A DNA stretch of 56,230 nucleotides from Candidatus Limnocylindrales bacterium. Lineage in GTDB: Bacteria > Moduliflexota > Moduliflexia > Moduliflexales > JAUQPW01. The stretch lies in NCBI GenBank assembly GCA_035559535.1, contig DATMBG010000016.1, positions 1 through 56,230 of the forward strand, read 5' to 3'. Below are positions 34,618 to 44,399 of the stretch, piece by piece (position 1 is the stretch's first letter; each line of letters begins with the position of its first letter). A program made the translations under genes and the position numbers. The notes beneath the pieces are model-generated. The model saw nothing but the letters and a program-made list of their open reading frames with translations, was not told the DNA's origin and ran no database searches.

Positions 34618-35892
34618 TTAGAGAATCGACTTAAGGGATTCCAGCGTTTTACGAACTCTCCATTGGTGATACTTTTCCATCACAAATCGAATACGGGGAT
34701 ATTGTTTAACAATATCGGCCAGAGCTGTCTGAGACAGTTTTAGGAGCTCTGTATTATCGGCGATGGCGGTTGCTGTAGCCGAACGGGGTTCCCGGGTAAG
34801 GAGTGCAGACTCCCCAAAGAAATCTCCTTTTTCCAGGGTAGAGAGATAAAGTTCTTTTTGATCCTTTGCAGCTTTCTTAATCACACTCACCTCATCGTCT
34901 TCCATGAGGGTGGTATAAATTCCCACACGACCCGATTTAACGATATAGAGAGAATCTCCGGGAGTGCCTTCTTTAAAGATAATAGCGCCTTGGGGGAAGG
35001 TCTCTAAGGTTAAATGCTTTGCAATGGATAAACGCTCTTCCGGTTTCAAATCGCTAAACAGCGGGACTAAGGCCAGGGTTAACTTAAGTTCTCGGCTATT
35101 ATAAACCTCTTCCAGTACCATCCGGGTTTTCGGAAATTTTATAAGCAAAGGTTTTAAGATAGCTTCCGAGATCTCCAGGACTTTACAGGGAGTTTCTGCG
35201 ATCATGGTGGTCTGCCGACTGGTTTGGGCCAGAAGGGATAATTCTCCAAAAAAATCTCCTGGACCCAGAGGCTCTAAAGCCACAGAGGCCCCTTCTTTAT
35301 TCTTTACGCTGGTTTTAACCTTCCCCTCTAAAATAATAAAAAGTGAGGCCCTCTTCTCTCCTTCCGGGGGGATCACCTGGTTAGTGTTAAATTCCCTGAG
35401 AGTTGCCATTTTTTTAAGAAAAGTAAGATCTGAGGGATCGATATGGGATAAGAGAGAAATTTTTTCCAGGGGATAAGAAAACCCTCCCTCTTTGGAAACT
35501 TCTGTCTGGGGGGATTGCCCTGACCTGGAAATCGCCTTTTCGGGAAATCCCGTGTCTTCAAGAGGCTCAGCCCTTACTCCCCTCTGGAAATAGAGATTTG
35601 CCAACCGCTCATGGGCTTCTTTTCTGGATGGATCAAGCCTTACGATAATCTTATTAACGGCAATCGCCTTGACCAGATGACCTTCTTCTGCATACCGGAT
35701 GGCCGCTTCGGTATAAGCCTTGATGGCCGCTTCCTTATCCCCCGTTTTAGCATAAGCATCTCCCAATTTGAGCTGTACATCAATATTTTTAGGATTCTTC
35801 TCCAGGAGCTTTTTGTATTCCTCAATCTGAGAAGAGGTATCTTTTTCCTTTGAAACCAGTTTCTTAAGATCTCCTAAACCCTTAGGAAGCAT
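34618..35892 (-). CDS. TPR protein with two cyclic-nucleotide-binding domains
   Basis: A protein of 424 residues. Residues about 20-105 are TPR helices (VQLKLGDAYAKTGDKEAAIKA, EAHERLANLYFQRG). Two cNMP-binding domains follow, about 150-265 and 280-405. Their phosphate-binding cassettes are FGELSLLAQTSRQTTM and FGESALLTREPRSATA, with the Glu and Arg that bind the cyclic phosphate kept in both. No DNA-binding or kinase domain, so it is a probable cytoplasmic signal adaptor. It is 94 bp after secF on the same strand. Confidence 0.88.
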   Translation of the reverse strand: MLPKGLGDLKKLVSKEKDTSSQIEEYKKLLEKNPKNIDVQLKLGDAYAKTGDKEAAIKAYTEAAIRYAEEGHLVKAIAVNKIIVRLDPSRKEAHERLANLYFQRGVRAEPLEDTGFPEKAISRSGQSPQTEVSKEGGFSYPLEKISLLSHIDPSDLTFLKKMATLREFNTNQVIPPEGEKRASLFIILEGKVKTSVKNKEGASVALEPLGPGDFFGELSLLAQTSRQTTMIAETPCKVLEISEAILKPLLIKFPKTRMVLEEVYNSRELKLTLALVPLFSDLKPEERLSIAKHLTLETFPQGAIIFKEGTPGDSLYIVKSGRVGIYTTLMEDDEVSVIKKAAKDQKELYLSTLEKGDFFGESALLTREPRSATATAIADNTELLKLSQTALADIVKQYPRIRFVMEKYHQWRVRKTLESLKSIL

Positions 35893-35986
35893 AACTCGAT
35901 CCTCAATCTCAAACCCTAAACTTGACTGGAAGGTAGTCGAAGCGGGAAGGTGGAAGAGGTAGTTTCTACCTTCTATCTTTCTTTAT

Positions 35987-37108
35987 TTAGTGCTTAGGGC
36001 TATAACTTTTCTTTTTAGAGATATTTTGCCAGACTACTAAAATAGGGCTTGCTACAAATATAGACGAATAGGTTCCCGTGACAACTCCAACTAGCATTGC
36101 AAAAGCAAAGCCATTGATGACTTCTCCCCCTCGAAGATACAGAATAAGGGTAACGATAAAGACCGTAAAAGCCGTTAAAATGGTTCGACTGAGGGTTTGA
36201 TTAATACTCATATTGACAATTTCTTCAAAGGGCTTACTTCGATAGTAAAGTCGAAGATTTTCTCGGATTCGGTCAAAAACAACGATGGTATCATTGACCG
36301 AATATCCAATGAGGGTTAAAATAGCGGCTACAACAGGTAGTGTAACTTCTCGATTGGTAATAGAAAACATACCGATCGTCACAATCACATCGTGGATCAG
36401 CGCGATAATAGCTGCAAAAGCGAATCGAAGATCTAAAATGATACAGACCACCAAAACTGCCACCAGGGCAACCGAAGTCAAAAGTGGAATATACATCCAC
36501 TCCAGGGAAGATAAAGCGATGGTCAACAGAGCGATTCCGGTGATAACGGCTATGGAAGTGACTGACTCGTAATCAAACCGCCAGCCTAAATAGAGGACCA
36601 TTCCGGCAATGGCAAATAAAAGGGCTAATTGAGCCTGGCGGGTCAATTCTCCTCCTACCTGAGGTCCTACACTCTCGATGCGTCTAACTTCAAAGGGATT
36701 ATCCCCCAATTTATTTTTAAGGCCCTCTACGACCTTACTCCCCACATTTTCTCCTGAAGCGCTTTGCTCTACACGGATGAGAATATCTCTATCACTTCCA
36801 AACTGCTGAATAATACTATCTCCCAGACCAACCGTTTGAAGGGTCTCTCGAATCTGATCGATTTGAACTGGTTTTTCAAAACGTACCTCGACCAGAGCTC
36901 CACCCTTGAAATCGATCCCTAAATCAAATCCACCTTTTATGATTACCGAACCGAGGCCCACAACGGCAGTAACAAGGGAAACAATAAAGGCTATTTTCCT
37001 TTTGCCGACAAAATCATAATTAATTCGTTTAAAAAGATACGAACTATAAACCTTTTGAGACTTACCCTTAACTGGGGTCTTTTCGACTTTTTCTGCTTTT
37101 GGTTGCAT
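35987..37108 (-). CDS. secF: Protein translocase subunit SecF
   Basis: A protein of 373 residues with a basic N-terminal extension of about 25. Six membrane segments; the first periplasmic loop includes FDLGIDFKGGALVEVRFE, and VFDRIRENLR (segment 4/5) is the SecF signature. With SecD and YajC it uses the proton gradient to help proteins leave SecYEG. It is 81 bp after secD, with a palindromic word array between. Confidence 0.96.
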   Translation of the reverse strand: MQPKAEKVEKTPVKGKSQKVYSSYLFKRINYDFVGKRKIAFIVSLVTAVVGLGSVIIKGGFDLGIDFKGGALVEVRFEKPVQIDQIRETLQTVGLGDSIIQQFGSDRDILIRVEQSASGENVGSKVVEGLKNKLGDNPFEVRRIESVGPQVGGELTRQAQLALLFAIAGMVLYLGWRFDYESVTSIAVITGIALLTIALSSLEWMYIPLLTSVALVAVLVVCIILDLRFAFAAIIALIHDVIVTIGMFSITNREVTLPVVAAILTLIGYSVNDTIVVFDRIRENLRLYYRSKPFEEIVNMSINQTLSRTILTAFTVFIVTLILYLRGGEVINGFAFAMLVGVVTGTYSSIFVASPILVVWQNISKKKSYSPKH

Positions 37109-37121
37109 TTTTTTTAGTCCA

Positions 37122-37182
37122 TGGTTGCCGTCCGTTGCCGTTCGTTAATAATCCACGGATAATGGGCAACGGGCAACGGACC
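37122..37182. repeat. Inverted short-word array between secD and secF
   Basis: GTTGCCGTCCGTTGCCGTTC (37124) and GGGCAACGGGCAACGGAC (37164-37181) are inverted. Same CAACG word family as 30730-30793 and 39246-39375. Confidence 0.75.
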
Positions 37183-37189
37183 GATGACA

Positions 37190-38749
37190 TTAAATACTCA
37201 GCGTCTTAACATTCCTCCCTGCCAGCATAAGATCGAACATCATCTTCGTCACGGTAATAGCAGTAAATAGGGTTGTCAAAATTCCGATACTAAGGGTTAC
37301 TGCAAATCCTTTAACGGGACCTGTACCAAATTGAAAAAGGATAATTCCTGAAAGGAGGGTGGTTAAATTGGCATCGATAATGGTAACGAAAGCTCTGGAG
37401 AAACCATTCTCAACGGCAGAGCGGACGGTTTTGCCCAGATCCAGTTCCTCACGGATTCGTTCAAAAATCAGAATGTTTGCATCCACCGCCATTCCAATGG
37501 TTAAGGCAATTCCTGCAATACCGGGTAACGTCAATGTTGCCCCAAAACCGGCCAGGGCTCCCACAAGCAGAAGAATATTAATCGCAAGGGCGATATTGGC
37601 AATCAGGCCGGATAACTTATAATAGGCAATCATAAAAATAACGACCAAAGCTGCTCCCATAAGGGAAGCCTGAATACCTAAACGGATAGAATCCTGTCCT
37701 AGAGAAGGTCCTACTGTACGATCTTCCAGGATCTTAACCGGCGCCGGTAAGGCACCGGCTCGAAGAACAATGGCCAGATCCGAGGCCTCTTCGACCGTGA
37801 AATTCCCGGTGATCTGCCCTTTATCCGTAATCTTGGAGCGAATCACAGGGGCTGATTGAACTTTGTTGTCCAGCACAATAGCCAACTGCTTATCGATATT
37901 GGCTTCGGTCAACTCCCCAAATTTTCGAGAACCTTCCCGGCCGAATTCAAAGCTTACAGCCGGCATATTATATTCATCCCGACTGGTCCGGGCATCTTTC
38001 AGATCGGCCCCGGTGACCTTCGCTTCTTTTTCTAGCAAATAGTACCGGCTAACTTTCCCCTCACCGGTTTTACCGGAAGAAGCCTGGGGAAGTATCTCCG
38101 TACCCTCCGGAATCTTTCCCCCATATCGCTGGAGGAGTTCTTCCTGGCTTGCAGCCACATCTCTAACCAGTTGAAACCGAAGCTCTGCGGTTTTCCCTAC
38201 CAACTCCTTTGCACGTTCCGGATCATTGATTCCTGCCAGCTCTACAATAATTCGGTTTTCCCCCTCCCGTTGAATAATAGGTTCCCGAACCCCAAACTGA
38301 TCCACCCGATTCCGGATAGTTCTCAGGGCCTGTTGCAGAGCATTCTCCTTAATATTCTGAATGGCTTTACTCTCCAATCCAAGGACAAGTCTGGTATTAT
38401 CCGAAGGGGGAGGTTTCCTCTCAAAGTTGGGAAGATTGTCCCGAACTATCTTCATAACCCCGGATTCAGATTGGGGATCTACCAGTTGCAAGGTCAGGCT
38501 ATGATCCGGGTTAACCGACAAAAGCTGATATTTAATTTTGTTTTTATTTAATTCTTTTTCTAAAAAATCTTTGGCCCTGATCACTTCATTCTGCACCGCT
38601 TTATCCGTTTCAACTTCCAGAGCCAGGTGAATGCCACCCTGTAAGTCCAGACCCAGGTTTAGTTTCTCCCGGGGTGGATAAATAGCCCATCCTGCTGCTA
38701 TCAGTAAAAGAATAGTAAGACCTAATCGCCACTTTAAATCGCTTTTCAA
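37190..38749 (-). CDS. secD: Protein translocase subunit SecD
   Basis: A protein of 519 residues. LNLGLDLQGGIHLALEVE follows the first membrane segment, then the P1 periplasmic domain with RNRVDQFGVREPIIQREG, and five C-terminal segments with VDANILIFERIREEL. The start appears to be TTG 38749 (KSDLKWRL); no ATG fits the conserved N-terminus better. Second gene of the yajC-secD-secF run. Confidence 0.96.
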   Translation of the reverse strand: MKSDLKWRLGLTILLLIAAGWAIYPPREKLNLGLDLQGGIHLALEVETDKAVQNEVIRAKDFLEKELNKNKIKYQLLSVNPDHSLTLQLVDPQSESGVMKIVRDNLPNFERKPPPSDNTRLVLGLESKAIQNIKENALQQALRTIRNRVDQFGVREPIIQREGENRIIVELAGINDPERAKELVGKTAELRFQLVRDVAASQEELLQRYGGKIPEGTEILPQASSGKTGEGKVSRYYLLEKEAKVTGADLKDARTSRDEYNMPAVSFEFGREGSRKFGELTEANIDKQLAIVLDNKVQSAPVIRSKITDKGQITGNFTVEEASDLAIVLRAGALPAPVKILEDRTVGPSLGQDSIRLGIQASLMGAALVVIFMIAYYKLSGLIANIALAINILLLVGALAGFGATLTLPGIAGIALTIGMAVDANILIFERIREELDLGKTVRSAVENGFSRAFVTIIDANLTTLLSGIILFQFGTGPVKGFAVTLSIGILTTLFTAITVTKMMFDLMLAGRNVKTLSI

Positions 38750-38765
38750 GGAACTCTTTTATAAA

Positions 38766-38860
38766 GAGTATGGGAGTATGGAAGTATGGAAGTATGGGAG
38801 TATGAGAAAATTTACCCCCATACCCCCATACTCCCACACTCCTATACTCCCATACTCCCT
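38766..38860. repeat. Inverted short-word array (AGTATGGGAGTATGG type)
   Basis: The left arm is a run of GAGTATGGGAGTATGGAAG words and the right arm the inverse CCCATACTCCCACACTCC. It fills the gap between yajC and secD. Same family at 45101-45187 and 49553-49636. Confidence 0.9.
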
Positions 38861-38876
38861 ATAGACTCCCCATGTC

Positions 38877-39239
38877 TCATTCAGAAGTAGACCCTTCTCC
38901 GTTATTGCTGGCCTCGTTCTGGAACCCAGCTATGGCGTTGCGGGAAACCTTCACCTTCACTTGGTCAGCAATCCTGAGTTGTACATAGGAATCATTCAAC
39001 CCGACAATGGTCCCATACAGCCCACCGGTTGTAATCACCTTATCCCCCTTTTTGAGATTGGCAAGCATGTCCCTGATCTCTTTCTGGCGCTTTTGCTGGG
39101 GTCTGATTAGCAGAAAGTAGAAAATTACGAACATGATGATCAGGGGAGTAAAGGAAAGTAAACCTTCTATGGGACTCCCTCCAGGTGCCGGAGCACCTGC
39201 CAATAATTTGGCTATATCCGATAATCCTATAAGTTGCAC
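38877..39239 (-). CDS. yajC: Preprotein translocase subunit YajC
   Basis: A protein of 120 residues from GTG 39239. One membrane segment (IIMFVIFYFLLIRPQQKRQKE) and the conserved LKKGDKVITTGGLYGTIVGL. The N-terminal Ala/Gly/Pro-rich stretch before the membrane segment is typical. It lies between tgt and secD. Confidence 0.96.
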   Translation of the reverse strand: MQLIGLSDIAKLLAGAPAPGGSPIEGLLSFTPLIIMFVIFYFLLIRPQQKRQKEIRDMLANLKKGDKVITTGGLYGTIVGLNDSYVQLRIADQVKVKVSRNAIAGFQNEASNNGEGSTSE

Positions 39240-41252: not shown

Positions 41253-41900
41253 ATGATAAGGAACAATCTAAAAGAGTATATATCCCGTTCTCAAAGGGAT
41301 AAAATAAAACCTATTGCAATGATAGTTGGTAGTCTTGTCATCATCGGTATATTGGCAGGTTCTATGTACTGGGCGGCCAGGTCGGATAGCAAGAAAGACC
41401 ATGTCAGTGCAAAGGTTGAGACGACGAGTCCTGTCAAAACTAATAATCCGGAGATCAAACCAGATAGTAGAGAATCAAAGGCTGAGGTTAAAACCTCTGA
41501 TGCCAATACCCAGACCCAGGCTCAAGAGATCAAAAGCTTAGAAGACGAGATTGCGCGACTCCGCAAGCAAAATGAAGAATTGTCCTTGAAGGTAAAGAAC
41601 TTAGAAAAACAGCTTCGTGACACTGCAACTGCTACCAATCGGACTACCGTTACCAAACCTGAAGCCGTCGAAGAGAAAAAACTTGAAACCGCCAAATCTT
41701 CCGAAGAGAAAAAGCTGGCAAAATCCGTAGATAAATCCCGAGGGAAGGAAAATAAAATTTCCTATACGGTAAAAAAGGGGGATACCCTGTGGAGTATCGC
41801 CGATAAATACGGGGTCAGTGTCAATGCTATCAAAGAGTGGAATAATTTACGGGATGAAAAACTTGCGATAGGGGAAGAAATTACGGTTATAAAGCCTTAA
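41253..41900 (+). CDS. Membrane-anchored LysM-domain protein
   Basis: A protein of 215 residues. Basic N-terminus, one membrane segment (about 20-42), Ser/Thr/Lys-rich linker, short coiled coil (about 90-125), another charged linker, and a C-terminal LysM domain (about 169-213: YTVKKGDTLWSIADKYGVSVNAI, LAIGEEITV). It binds peptidoglycan in the periplasm. Shine-Dalgarno AAGGGAAGGG. The next gene, a cyclase-like receptor, starts 42 bp later. Confidence 0.9.
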   Translation: MIRNNLKEYISRSQRDKIKPIAMIVGSLVIIGILAGSMYWAARSDSKKDHVSAKVETTSPVKTNNPEIKPDSRESKAEVKTSDANTQTQAQEIKSLEDEIARLRKQNEELSLKVKNLEKQLRDTATATNRTTVTKPEAVEEKKLETAKSSEEKKLAKSVDKSRGKENKISYTVKKGDTLWSIADKYGVSVNAIKEWNNLRDEKLAIGEEITVIKP

Positions 41901-41942: not shown

Positions 41943-43331
41943 ATGCAGGTATCTATAACTCTAAAGGCTAAGCTATGTCTGCTCATCCTGGGACTCCTTA
42001 TCCTGACTATTTTGGGCGTTGGAATTTTATTCATTCTCTCGGAAAGAGATACTTTATATACCCTTATGAAGAACCAGGGGGAAGCACTGGTTACCGACCT
42101 GGCTCAAACCAGTGCCGAACCCCTCTTAAATGAAGATGACCTGATCCTCAATTCCCTGGTGAGGAATGCAAGCTCGAAAAGATCGGTTGAAGCCGCCTTT
42201 GTTGTGGATAACCAGGGTATCGTACGCGCCCATTCGGAGGCAGAGTTTATAGGAGTAAAATTTACACTTCCTGCCGGGCTTAAAGAGGCCTATGAAGCTC
42301 AGCATCAAATTATCGCCCAACCTTATACTACCCCTAAGGGGGTTCCTACGCTTTATTTTCTACGTCCTATATTTTACAACAATCTTCAGCTTGGTACGGC
42401 CCATTTGGAACTCTCCCAGGATGTTATAAATACGGCTGTCCGGGAGGCCATTCATAGAATTATAGGATTTTTAATCGGTGCAATTATTCTCGGAAGTATC
42501 GCTTCCCTGGGCCTGGCTTCCTGGATCTTAACTCCCATCTATGATCTTATAGAAGGAACCAAAGCCATAGCCGGGGGAAACTATCAATACCGATTACCGG
42601 TTAAATCCCAGGATGAGATCGGTACGCTGACCCAGGCTTTCAATTCCATGGCCCAGACCCTTCAGCATAAGGAGCGGGTAGAACGGGCGTTTGGTAAATA
42701 TGTATCCGGCCAGATTGCAGAATGGATCCTTAAAAATCCCCAGATCTATGTGGGAGGTATCCGGCAAGAAGTGACCGTTCTGTTTGCGAGTATTCGAGGA
42801 TTTACATCCCTGGCCGAAACCATTCCGCCGGAACAAGTGGTCGAATTGTTAAATCGATATCTAACGGTCATGACCCGGGTCATCTTTGATTTTAATGGAC
42901 TTCTGGATAAATTTATGGGAGATGCCATCATGGCCGTCTTTGGAGCTCCCGTGTTGAGGCAAGAAAATCACGCCGAGATGGCCGTTAGAGCAGCCCTTAA
43001 AATCCAGGAAGAAATTCAAAAGTTAGGTGATCAGCTTCAACGGGAAGGAAAAAAATATGTTGGCGTTGGAATCGGGATCAATTCCGGAGAAGTCGTCTCG
43101 GGTAACATGGGATCCCTGGAGCGATTAGAATATACAGTCCTGGGGGATAATGTTCATATTGCTTCCCGACTTGAGTCTGTCGCCGGTAGCGGCCAAATTC
43201 TTATTACCGAGGCCGTCTATCAAAAAGTTAAAAACCTGATCGATGTGGATCCATTACCCCCCATGCCCATCAAAGGACGAACGAAACCACTCCTCAGTTA
43301 TGAGGTAAAAAAACTGAAAAACAACACATAA
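41943..43331 (+). CDS. Membrane sensor with HAMP and class III nucleotidyl cyclase domain (altered active site)
   Basis: A protein of 462 residues. Two membrane segments (about 9-32 and 167-190) enclose a periplasmic sensor region, then HAMP (about 190-245, SQDEIGTLTQAFNSMAQTL) and a class III adenylate/guanylate cyclase domain (about 270-455). Kept: Asp327 (second metal ligand), Lys323 (adenine-selecting) in LDKFMGDAIMAVFG, and Arg409. Changed: the first metal Asp is Ser283 (VLFASIRGFT instead of VLFADIRGFT) and the transition-state Asn is His405 (GDNVHIASRLE). A homodimer should therefore be impaired or regulatory. A TPR/cNMP-binding protein is encoded about 6 kb away. Confidence 0.88.
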   Translation: MQVSITLKAKLCLLILGLLILTILGVGILFILSERDTLYTLMKNQGEALVTDLAQTSAEPLLNEDDLILNSLVRNASSKRSVEAAFVVDNQGIVRAHSEAEFIGVKFTLPAGLKEAYEAQHQIIAQPYTTPKGVPTLYFLRPIFYNNLQLGTAHLELSQDVINTAVREAIHRIIGFLIGAIILGSIASLGLASWILTPIYDLIEGTKAIAGGNYQYRLPVKSQDEIGTLTQAFNSMAQTLQHKERVERAFGKYVSGQIAEWILKNPQIYVGGIRQEVTVLFASIRGFTSLAETIPPEQVVELLNRYLTVMTRVIFDFNGLLDKFMGDAIMAVFGAPVLRQENHAEMAVRAALKIQEEIQKLGDQLQREGKKYVGVGIGINSGEVVSGNMGSLERLEYTVLGDNVHIASRLESVAGSGQILITEAVYQKVKNLIDVDPLPPMPIKGRTKPLLSYEVKKLKNNT

Positions 43332-43632: not shown

Positions 43633-43926
43633 TTACGTCCGATTTTTTTCTACAAATTTGGCTAAAGAATTGATGCTGGCAAATGCCTTCATACCGGTTT
43701 CCATATCGGTAATGGAAACCCCAAATTCAGTCTCCAGAGCAACCACAACTTCCAAAGCTGCCATAGAATCGACCCCAAGCTTTGTCAGGGGAGTATCATC
43801 CCCAATTTCATGGGGGGTTAGATTAAGACCGGTCGCCTGAATCAGAATCTCTTTAAGTCTTTTTTTCAAAGCTGCGTCGGCCACACTCCGTCGGGTAGGG
43901 AACAACACGTAGCAAATAGTACTCAT
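43633..43926 (-). CDS. Acyl carrier protein
   Basis: 97 residues as drawn from ATG 43926, somewhat long for an ACP; GTG 43884 or 43908 could be the true start. GVDSMAALEVVVALE carries the Ser that receives 4'-phosphopantetheine, followed by an acidic helix. It is not beside fatty-acid synthesis genes, so a dedicated ACP (lipid, polyketide or peptide modification) is likely. The upstream partner gene ends 32 bp before. Confidence 0.85.
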   Translation of the reverse strand: MSTICYVLFPTRRSVADAALKKRLKEILIQATGLNLTPHEIGDDTPLTKLGVDSMAALEVVVALETEFGVSITDMETGMKAFASINSLAKFVEKNRT

Positions 43927-43958
43927 CCATTCTTCGCCACATGCCGTCTACGCTGTTT

Positions 43959-44399
43959 TTACGTTTGTCCTTCCTGTAAGGGACTGACTGCGATAAACCG
44001 ATAAACCTCTCCGGGTCCTACATCAAACGCAAATGAGAAGGCCCCATTGGCATCGGGAGGAGGCAAGAAATCTATATACTCCCGGGGTCCATGACCTTCC
44101 CTGAAAATCCAGAGCTCCGCACGGGGGGAATCATTCCAGATGACTCCATGGACAGAAGGACCACTTCGATAGCCACACGAACAGACAATCATGTCAAAAT
44201 CCGGTATCGTTACCCCTTGATTTAACTCCAGCTCCTCAGACCCCGTGGGAGGCGCATCGATATCTTTCCAGTACTCAACCACCAAAATATCGCTTCGACC
44301 GGAGTCCCGATTTTCAATATAAGCCTCGGAACCGTAGAACCCTTTTGTAACCCTGCGAACATTCCCCTCAGTGGACTTCCTATCCTTCTTAACGGACAT
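43959..44399 (-). CDS. Unknown small protein paired with ACP
   Basis: A protein of 146 residues, no signal peptide or membrane segment. Beta-rich by pattern, with CSCGYRSGPSVHG and FSFAFDVGPGEVYRFIAVSP. A charged N-terminus of about 25 residues. Strong Shine-Dalgarno AAGGAGAG. No family recognised. The ACP gene follows 32 bp downstream, so a shared operon is likely. Confidence 0.7.
   Translation of the reverse strand: MSVKKDRKSTEGNVRRVTKGFYGSEAYIENRDSGRSDILVVEYWKDIDAPPTGSEELELNQGVTIPDFDMIVCSCGYRSGPSVHGVIWNDSPRAELWIFREGHGPREYIDFLPPPDANGAFSFAFDVGPGEVYRFIAVSPLQEGQT

Follow-up and report, generated by a model that had tools for sequence, protein, structure and literature searches.

A sensor-bearing class III cyclase homologue with Ser and His at two catalytic columns as a putative pseudo-cyclase receptor

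The window analyzed in this work, a stretch of 56,230 nucleotides from the genome of Candidatus Limnocylindrales bacterium (contig DATMBG010000016.1), encodes a protein of 462 aa in which a sensor and a HAMP domain are combined with a class III cyclase fold, and in which two residues of the catalytic core are replaced. The question raised by this locus is whether such a protein is still an enzyme, provides one half of an enzyme, or has become a receptor whose output is not a cyclic nucleotide.

Domain architecture and catalytic columns

The gene (41943..43331, + strand, ATG start) displays the order sCache-like sensor, HAMP and class III cyclase, the last of these being the putative pseudo-cyclase. 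The periplasmic single-Cache-like sensor (residues 43-170, 42069..42452, +) is matched over nearly its full length by the Pfam family sCache_3_2 with 28.0 bits, just under the cut-off of 28.4, and is flanked by two hydrophobic helices located by hydropathy at residues of about 10-34 and 170-197. The HAMP domain (residues 191-241, 42513..42665, +; Pfam E 1.1e-14) and the catalytically degenerate cyclase fold (residues 275-448, 42765..43286, +; Pfam Guanylate_cyc E 2.9e-28) complete the protein. Homology to the class III nucleotide cyclases (PF00211) is established by both the significant profile match and the fold. The AlphaFold2 model of the 462-aa protein (mean pLDDT 86.7, pTM 0.56) shows long helices, a Cache-like sheet and a cyclase fold, as expected; being driven by the homologue alignment, it cannot prove nucleotide binding by the pocket. 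Using Foldseek, the cyclase domain was superposed on Cya2 (2w01) with a TM(target) of 0.90 and an rmsd of 1.7 A, and on the CyaB crystal structure (3r5g) with a TM(target) of about 0.90.

The catalytic columns were read against an unfiltered set of 124 non-identical homologous domains, all of them from outside the genus. Ser283 (AGT, 42789..42791, +) replaces the first metal-binding Asp, which is present in 122/122 homologues having a residue at this position, and His405 (CAT, 43155..43157, +) replaces the transition-state Asn, present in 121 of the 124. These are the sole deviations of the protein among the 24 columns that are at least 90% conserved in the set. The rest of the pocket is complete. 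The purine-selecting Lys323 (42909..42911, +), the second metal ligand Asp327 (42921..42923, +) and the transition-state/phosphate Arg409 (43167..43169, +) are kept, as are Thr398 (43134..43136, +), the second purine-selecting residue, of class IIIb type, and Lys444 in the conserved KG motif (43272..43274, +). Lys444 is a probable triphosphate-binding residue, on the assumption that its role is that described in mammalian adenylyl cyclase. Lys323 and Thr398 together constitute the class IIIb purine-selecting pair, and the protein is presumed from its residue spacing and from Thr398 to belong to this subtype as generally understood. The columns of a competent cyclase are thus occupied by the usual residues at 327 and 409 and by others at 283 and 405, where Asn at column 405 is usual in competent cyclases and not strictly required. 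All of the elements listed in the original prediction (the HAMP domain, Ser283 with its AGT codon at 42789, Lys323, Asp327, His405 with its CAT codon at 43155 and Arg409) were recovered.

No acidic residue that could stand in as a metal ligand occurs in the sequence within six positions of Ser283. The motif surrounding this residue, F-x-D-I-x-G-F-T, was found in its Asp form in 92 of 385 genomes. Its Ser form, searched as the exact motif with AGY codons alone, is confined among real cyclases of these 385 genomes to this gene and its orthologue in a sister species. Ser-form matches in genomes L189 and L190 were rejected, as they sit in open frames of 18 and 51 codons. The nearest sensor-HAMP cyclases found originate from candidate division WOR-3 (L041), Deltaproteobacteria (L043) and FCPU426 (L042 and L045). 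Such sensor-HAMP class IIIb adenylyl cyclases share the order of sensor, HAMP and cyclase with the 462-aa protein and are 32-42% identical to it over the alignment. All four keep the series Asp/Lys/Asp/Thr/Asn/Arg, whereas the 462-aa protein has Ser and His.

Readings of the substituted domain

The two substitutions do not carry the same weight. Two-metal catalysis in class III cyclases depends on the first metal Asp; since this residue is universal in the homologues and no acid is found nearby, it is on Ser283 that the predicted loss of activity depends. At the other column, Rv1900c possesses a His, which has been taken as showing that Asn is not required (PMC4886424), and the active Ma1120 possesses an Ala, the introduction of Asn causing its activity to drop or vanish (PMC4215837). 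Both resemble the 462-aa protein in the replaced Asn column and the conserved Arg, and differ from it in that they are described as active cyclases, while the 462-aa protein also lacks the first metal Asp (PMC4886424, PMC4215837). The original prediction had counted both replacements as losses of residues needed for catalysis. This remains valid for Ser283, where an indispensable residue is gone, and is not supported for His405, given that proteins with His (Rv1900c) or Ala (Ma1120) at this column are described as cyclases; Ser283 is therefore regarded as the inactivating change. A partial parallel is offered by the Rv2561-like mycobacterial homologues, which are also class III-like with one metal Asp missing (PMC4886424), but which are soluble, belong to another subfamily and are devoid of a Cache-HAMP sensor.

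The best reading, taken as a single joint claim and given a probability of roughly one half, is that of a catalytically silent and probably nucleotide-binding pseudo-cyclase homodimer. The pseudo-cyclase put forward originally is favored, as far as sequence can tell, by a sensor, a HAMP domain and a remaining nucleotide pocket that are all intact. The sequence shows the domain anatomy, the two substitutions, their occurrence in both genomes of the genus, purifying selection and a pocket otherwise complete. For this protein we infer catalytic inactivity, a homodimeric state and nucleotide binding, and its mode of action can be briefly summarized as follows. The gene product would be a dimeric inner-membrane receptor in which the periplasmic Cache-like domain would sense a small ligand and the HAMP domain would pass the signal through the membrane as a twist or a shift. 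The output would be a class III cyclase dimer without cyclic nucleotide synthesis, silent because Ser283 cannot hold two catalytic metals. Since Lys323, Thr398, Asp327, Arg409 and Lys444 are retained, the capacity of the domain to bind ATP or a related nucleotide has most likely been preserved. The signal would then be transmitted by conformation or docking, the domain acting as a nucleotide-gated scaffold or inhibitor and not as an enzyme. The pseudo-cyclase would thus probably signal without producing cAMP or cGMP.

HAMP receptors normally homodimerise, which, together with the lack of an intact HAMP-cyclase partner in the sister genome, was counted in favor of a homodimer. Signalling outputs formed by degenerate GGDEF or pseudokinase domains are well known. 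By analogy drawn from general knowledge, degenerate GGDEF receptors would be comparable in that a nucleotide-making domain has turned into a receptor output, although they belong to another family and concern another messenger. Within the cyclases themselves, the C2-C2 homodimer of the mammalian transmembrane adenylyl cyclases (tmAC) is devoid of metal residues and inactive, and still binds forskolin at its pseudo-sites (PMC4174876). No description of a sensor-bearing bacterial class III pseudo-cyclase with an otherwise complete pocket was found in the open-access literature.

Mammalian C2 domains also illustrate that a metal-less chain can provide the other half of a catalytic site (PMC4174876), and the 462-aa protein could accordingly be read as the C2-like half of a heterodimeric cyclase. 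The partner would supply both metal Asps and this chain Lys323, Thr398 and Arg409, with His405 replacing Asn as in Rv1900c, in order to form one composite, sensor-controlled site. Such an arrangement is unlikely. It is true that the lost metal Asp and the retained purine and Arg residues match the mammalian C2 pattern, pseudo-site dimer included (PMC4174876), that Asn replacements are known in cyclases described as active, and that several paralogues retain both metal Asps. However, a C2-type domain lacks the metal Asps, keeps Asn and Arg and works with C1, whereas here Asn is replaced by His405 and Asp327, superfluous for a dedicated C2-like half, is kept. No conserved C1-type partner was found. 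No cyclase gene adjoins the gene in either species, and the only other HAMP-like cyclase, the full-residue paralogue L175, retains only its two ends in the sister species, whose genome still encodes the pseudo-cyclase. The remaining paralogues carry CHASE2, REC, FHA-GAF, DUF5939 or AAA/TPR modules or no recognised sensor, and these differences make it unlikely that their linkers would match that of the pseudo-cyclase. The suggestion of the original prediction that the protein is one half of a heterodimer is consequently weakened. As to L175 itself, the orthologue of this dCache-HAMP-cyclase in the sister genome (G001:C71:23535-24275) is left with residues 16-133 and 655-741 and has no catalytic domain; this truncation may be a deletion or an assembly fault.

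A further reading, in which the protein remains an enzyme that cyclises ATP or another NTP weakly or in an altered way, with a single metal or with the help of Ser, is rather improbable. Both His (Rv1900c) and Ala (Ma1120) at the Asn column are compatible with activity (PMC4886424, PMC4215837), the remaining pocket is intact, and a pseudoenzyme called from its sequence can turn out to be active (PMC10211241). Ser is moreover polar, and, as a point against the best reading, Asp327 with the main-chain carbonyl might still hold one metal and allow slow turnover. These points are opposed by the occurrence of the first metal Asp in every one of the 122 homologues with a residue at its column, and by the dependence of two-metal catalysis on this very residue, for which no neighbouring acid substitutes.

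A dominant-negative function, in which non-productive mixed dimers with intact cyclases would lower cAMP when the sensor is engaged, is highly improbable: intact class III paralogues are encoded in both genomes and the dimer-forming fold is predicted to be intact in the model, but their unlike sensors and linkers argue against mixing.

The sister-species orthologue and purifying selection

The orthologue resides in the syntenic region of the only other genome of the genus in the analysis (G001:C62 = JAUQPW010000057.1), which is a separate assembly. The comparison covered four genomes of the order; the next relatives listed have no more than the domain in common. The ORF is full-length in both genomes, with 93% identity at the protein level and 92.4% at the nucleotide level, and the AGT (Ser) and CAT (His) codons are identical. 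The two species are separated by 32 changes in 462 residues, none of them between residues 294 and 385. An orthologue with the normal Asp and Asn was the observation that, according to the original prediction, would speak for a sequence error or a strain mutation; within the genus the comparison turned out in favor of the prediction, the orthologue having Ser and His. Identical residues in an independently assembled genome rule out a sequencing error or strain mutation. In addition, the conversion of GAT or GAC to AGT requires at least two base changes, so that a single base error cannot account for Ser283. Two REC-PAS-cyclases (L185 and L186, same order) were considered as further orthologues and rejected because their sensors differ; the substitution is known from two species only.

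Between these two species, the catalytic domain shows a dN of 0.026 and a dS of 0.272, corresponding to a dN/dS of 0.095. The same ratio is 0.112 and 0.039 for two fully intact paralogues and 0.216 for the sensor part of the protein. At a dS of about 0.25, the retention of the two codons is not significant alone, while the domain-wide constraint is. The catalytic domain is under strong purifying selection, to a degree resembling that of intact paralogues, and therefore belongs to a protein that is maintained and not decaying. A recently dead gene in decay, or an assembly error, is hardly credible: two catalytic residues are gone and about half of the cyclase domains of the genome are without a core residue, but the substitutions recur in the independent assembly, within a full-length ORF and a degenerate domain constrained at the above ratio.

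Neighbouring genes and other class III domains

A coiled-coil LysM protein with a single-helix anchor (41253..41900, +) is encoded 42 bp upstream of the cyclase gene. This gene order is common to both species, and the LysM protein is a probable operon partner of the pseudo-cyclase gene. In a promoter scan, promoter-like sites did not exceed chance expectation.

A TPR protein with two cNMP-binding domains (34618..35892, -), located 6 kb from the cyclase gene, had been proposed as a read-out partner. Glu and Arg are present in both of its phosphate cassettes. The gene is on the opposite strand, downstream of yajC-secD-secF, and its product is one of many such proteins, 14 and 15 cNMP domain matches being found in the two genomes. 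Given the opposite strand and the numerous cNMP domains, distance by itself establishes no specific link, and a pseudo-cyclase that makes no cNMP would not supply such a protein; the proposed read-out is thus weakened. In the interval 34618-39239 (-), the TPR/cNMP gene directly follows yajC-secD-secF, an order that is the same in the sister genome. A TPR gene found beside the intact homologue in L042 was considered as a counterpart and rejected, since it is without a cNMP domain and displays general TPR similarity only. On the other side of the cyclase gene, the interval 43633-44399 (-) encodes an acyl-carrier-like protein (PP-binding, 97 aa) adjoining a protein of 146 aa without a Pfam match, the latter being 99% identical in the sister species.

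The genome from which the window originates contains 16 class III domains, nine of which are substituted at one or more of the core columns 283, 327, 405 and 409. For seven of these nine, the orthologue in the sister species is substituted as well. Most substituted paralogues deviate at many further conserved columns; the window protein is the case in which only the two catalytic columns are changed.

Two other loci of this family can be mentioned. At L176:4052-7834 (G000:C51:232051-235833), an FHA-GAF-cyclase-PP2C gene (core DKDTVR) is adjacent to an FHA-GAF-cyclase gene (DKGTTR); both metal Asps are present in the first cyclase, whereas the second is without one. Judged from its residues, this pair is more plausible as a heterodimeric bacterial cyclase than the window protein. 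At L180:4347-7079, a kinase-FHA-GAF protein ends in a C-terminal class III domain with the core RRGINY (HRGINH in the sister genome), in which both metal Asps are lost.

It is tentatively proposed, with doubts that outweigh our confidence, that the window encodes a transmembrane receptor employing a cyclase domain as a non-catalytic, nucleotide-binding output, its lineage being one in which roughly half the class III domains are core-deficient yet constrained. If confirmed, the pseudo-cyclase would imply that the cAMP/cGMP synthesis of such genomes is overestimated when PF00211 domains are counted, and would provide a clean test case of a cyclase fold whose role is to read nucleotides and not to produce a messenger. 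A non-catalytic receptor of this kind, if true, would suggest that the cyclase fold is used more widely for non-enzymatic purposes.
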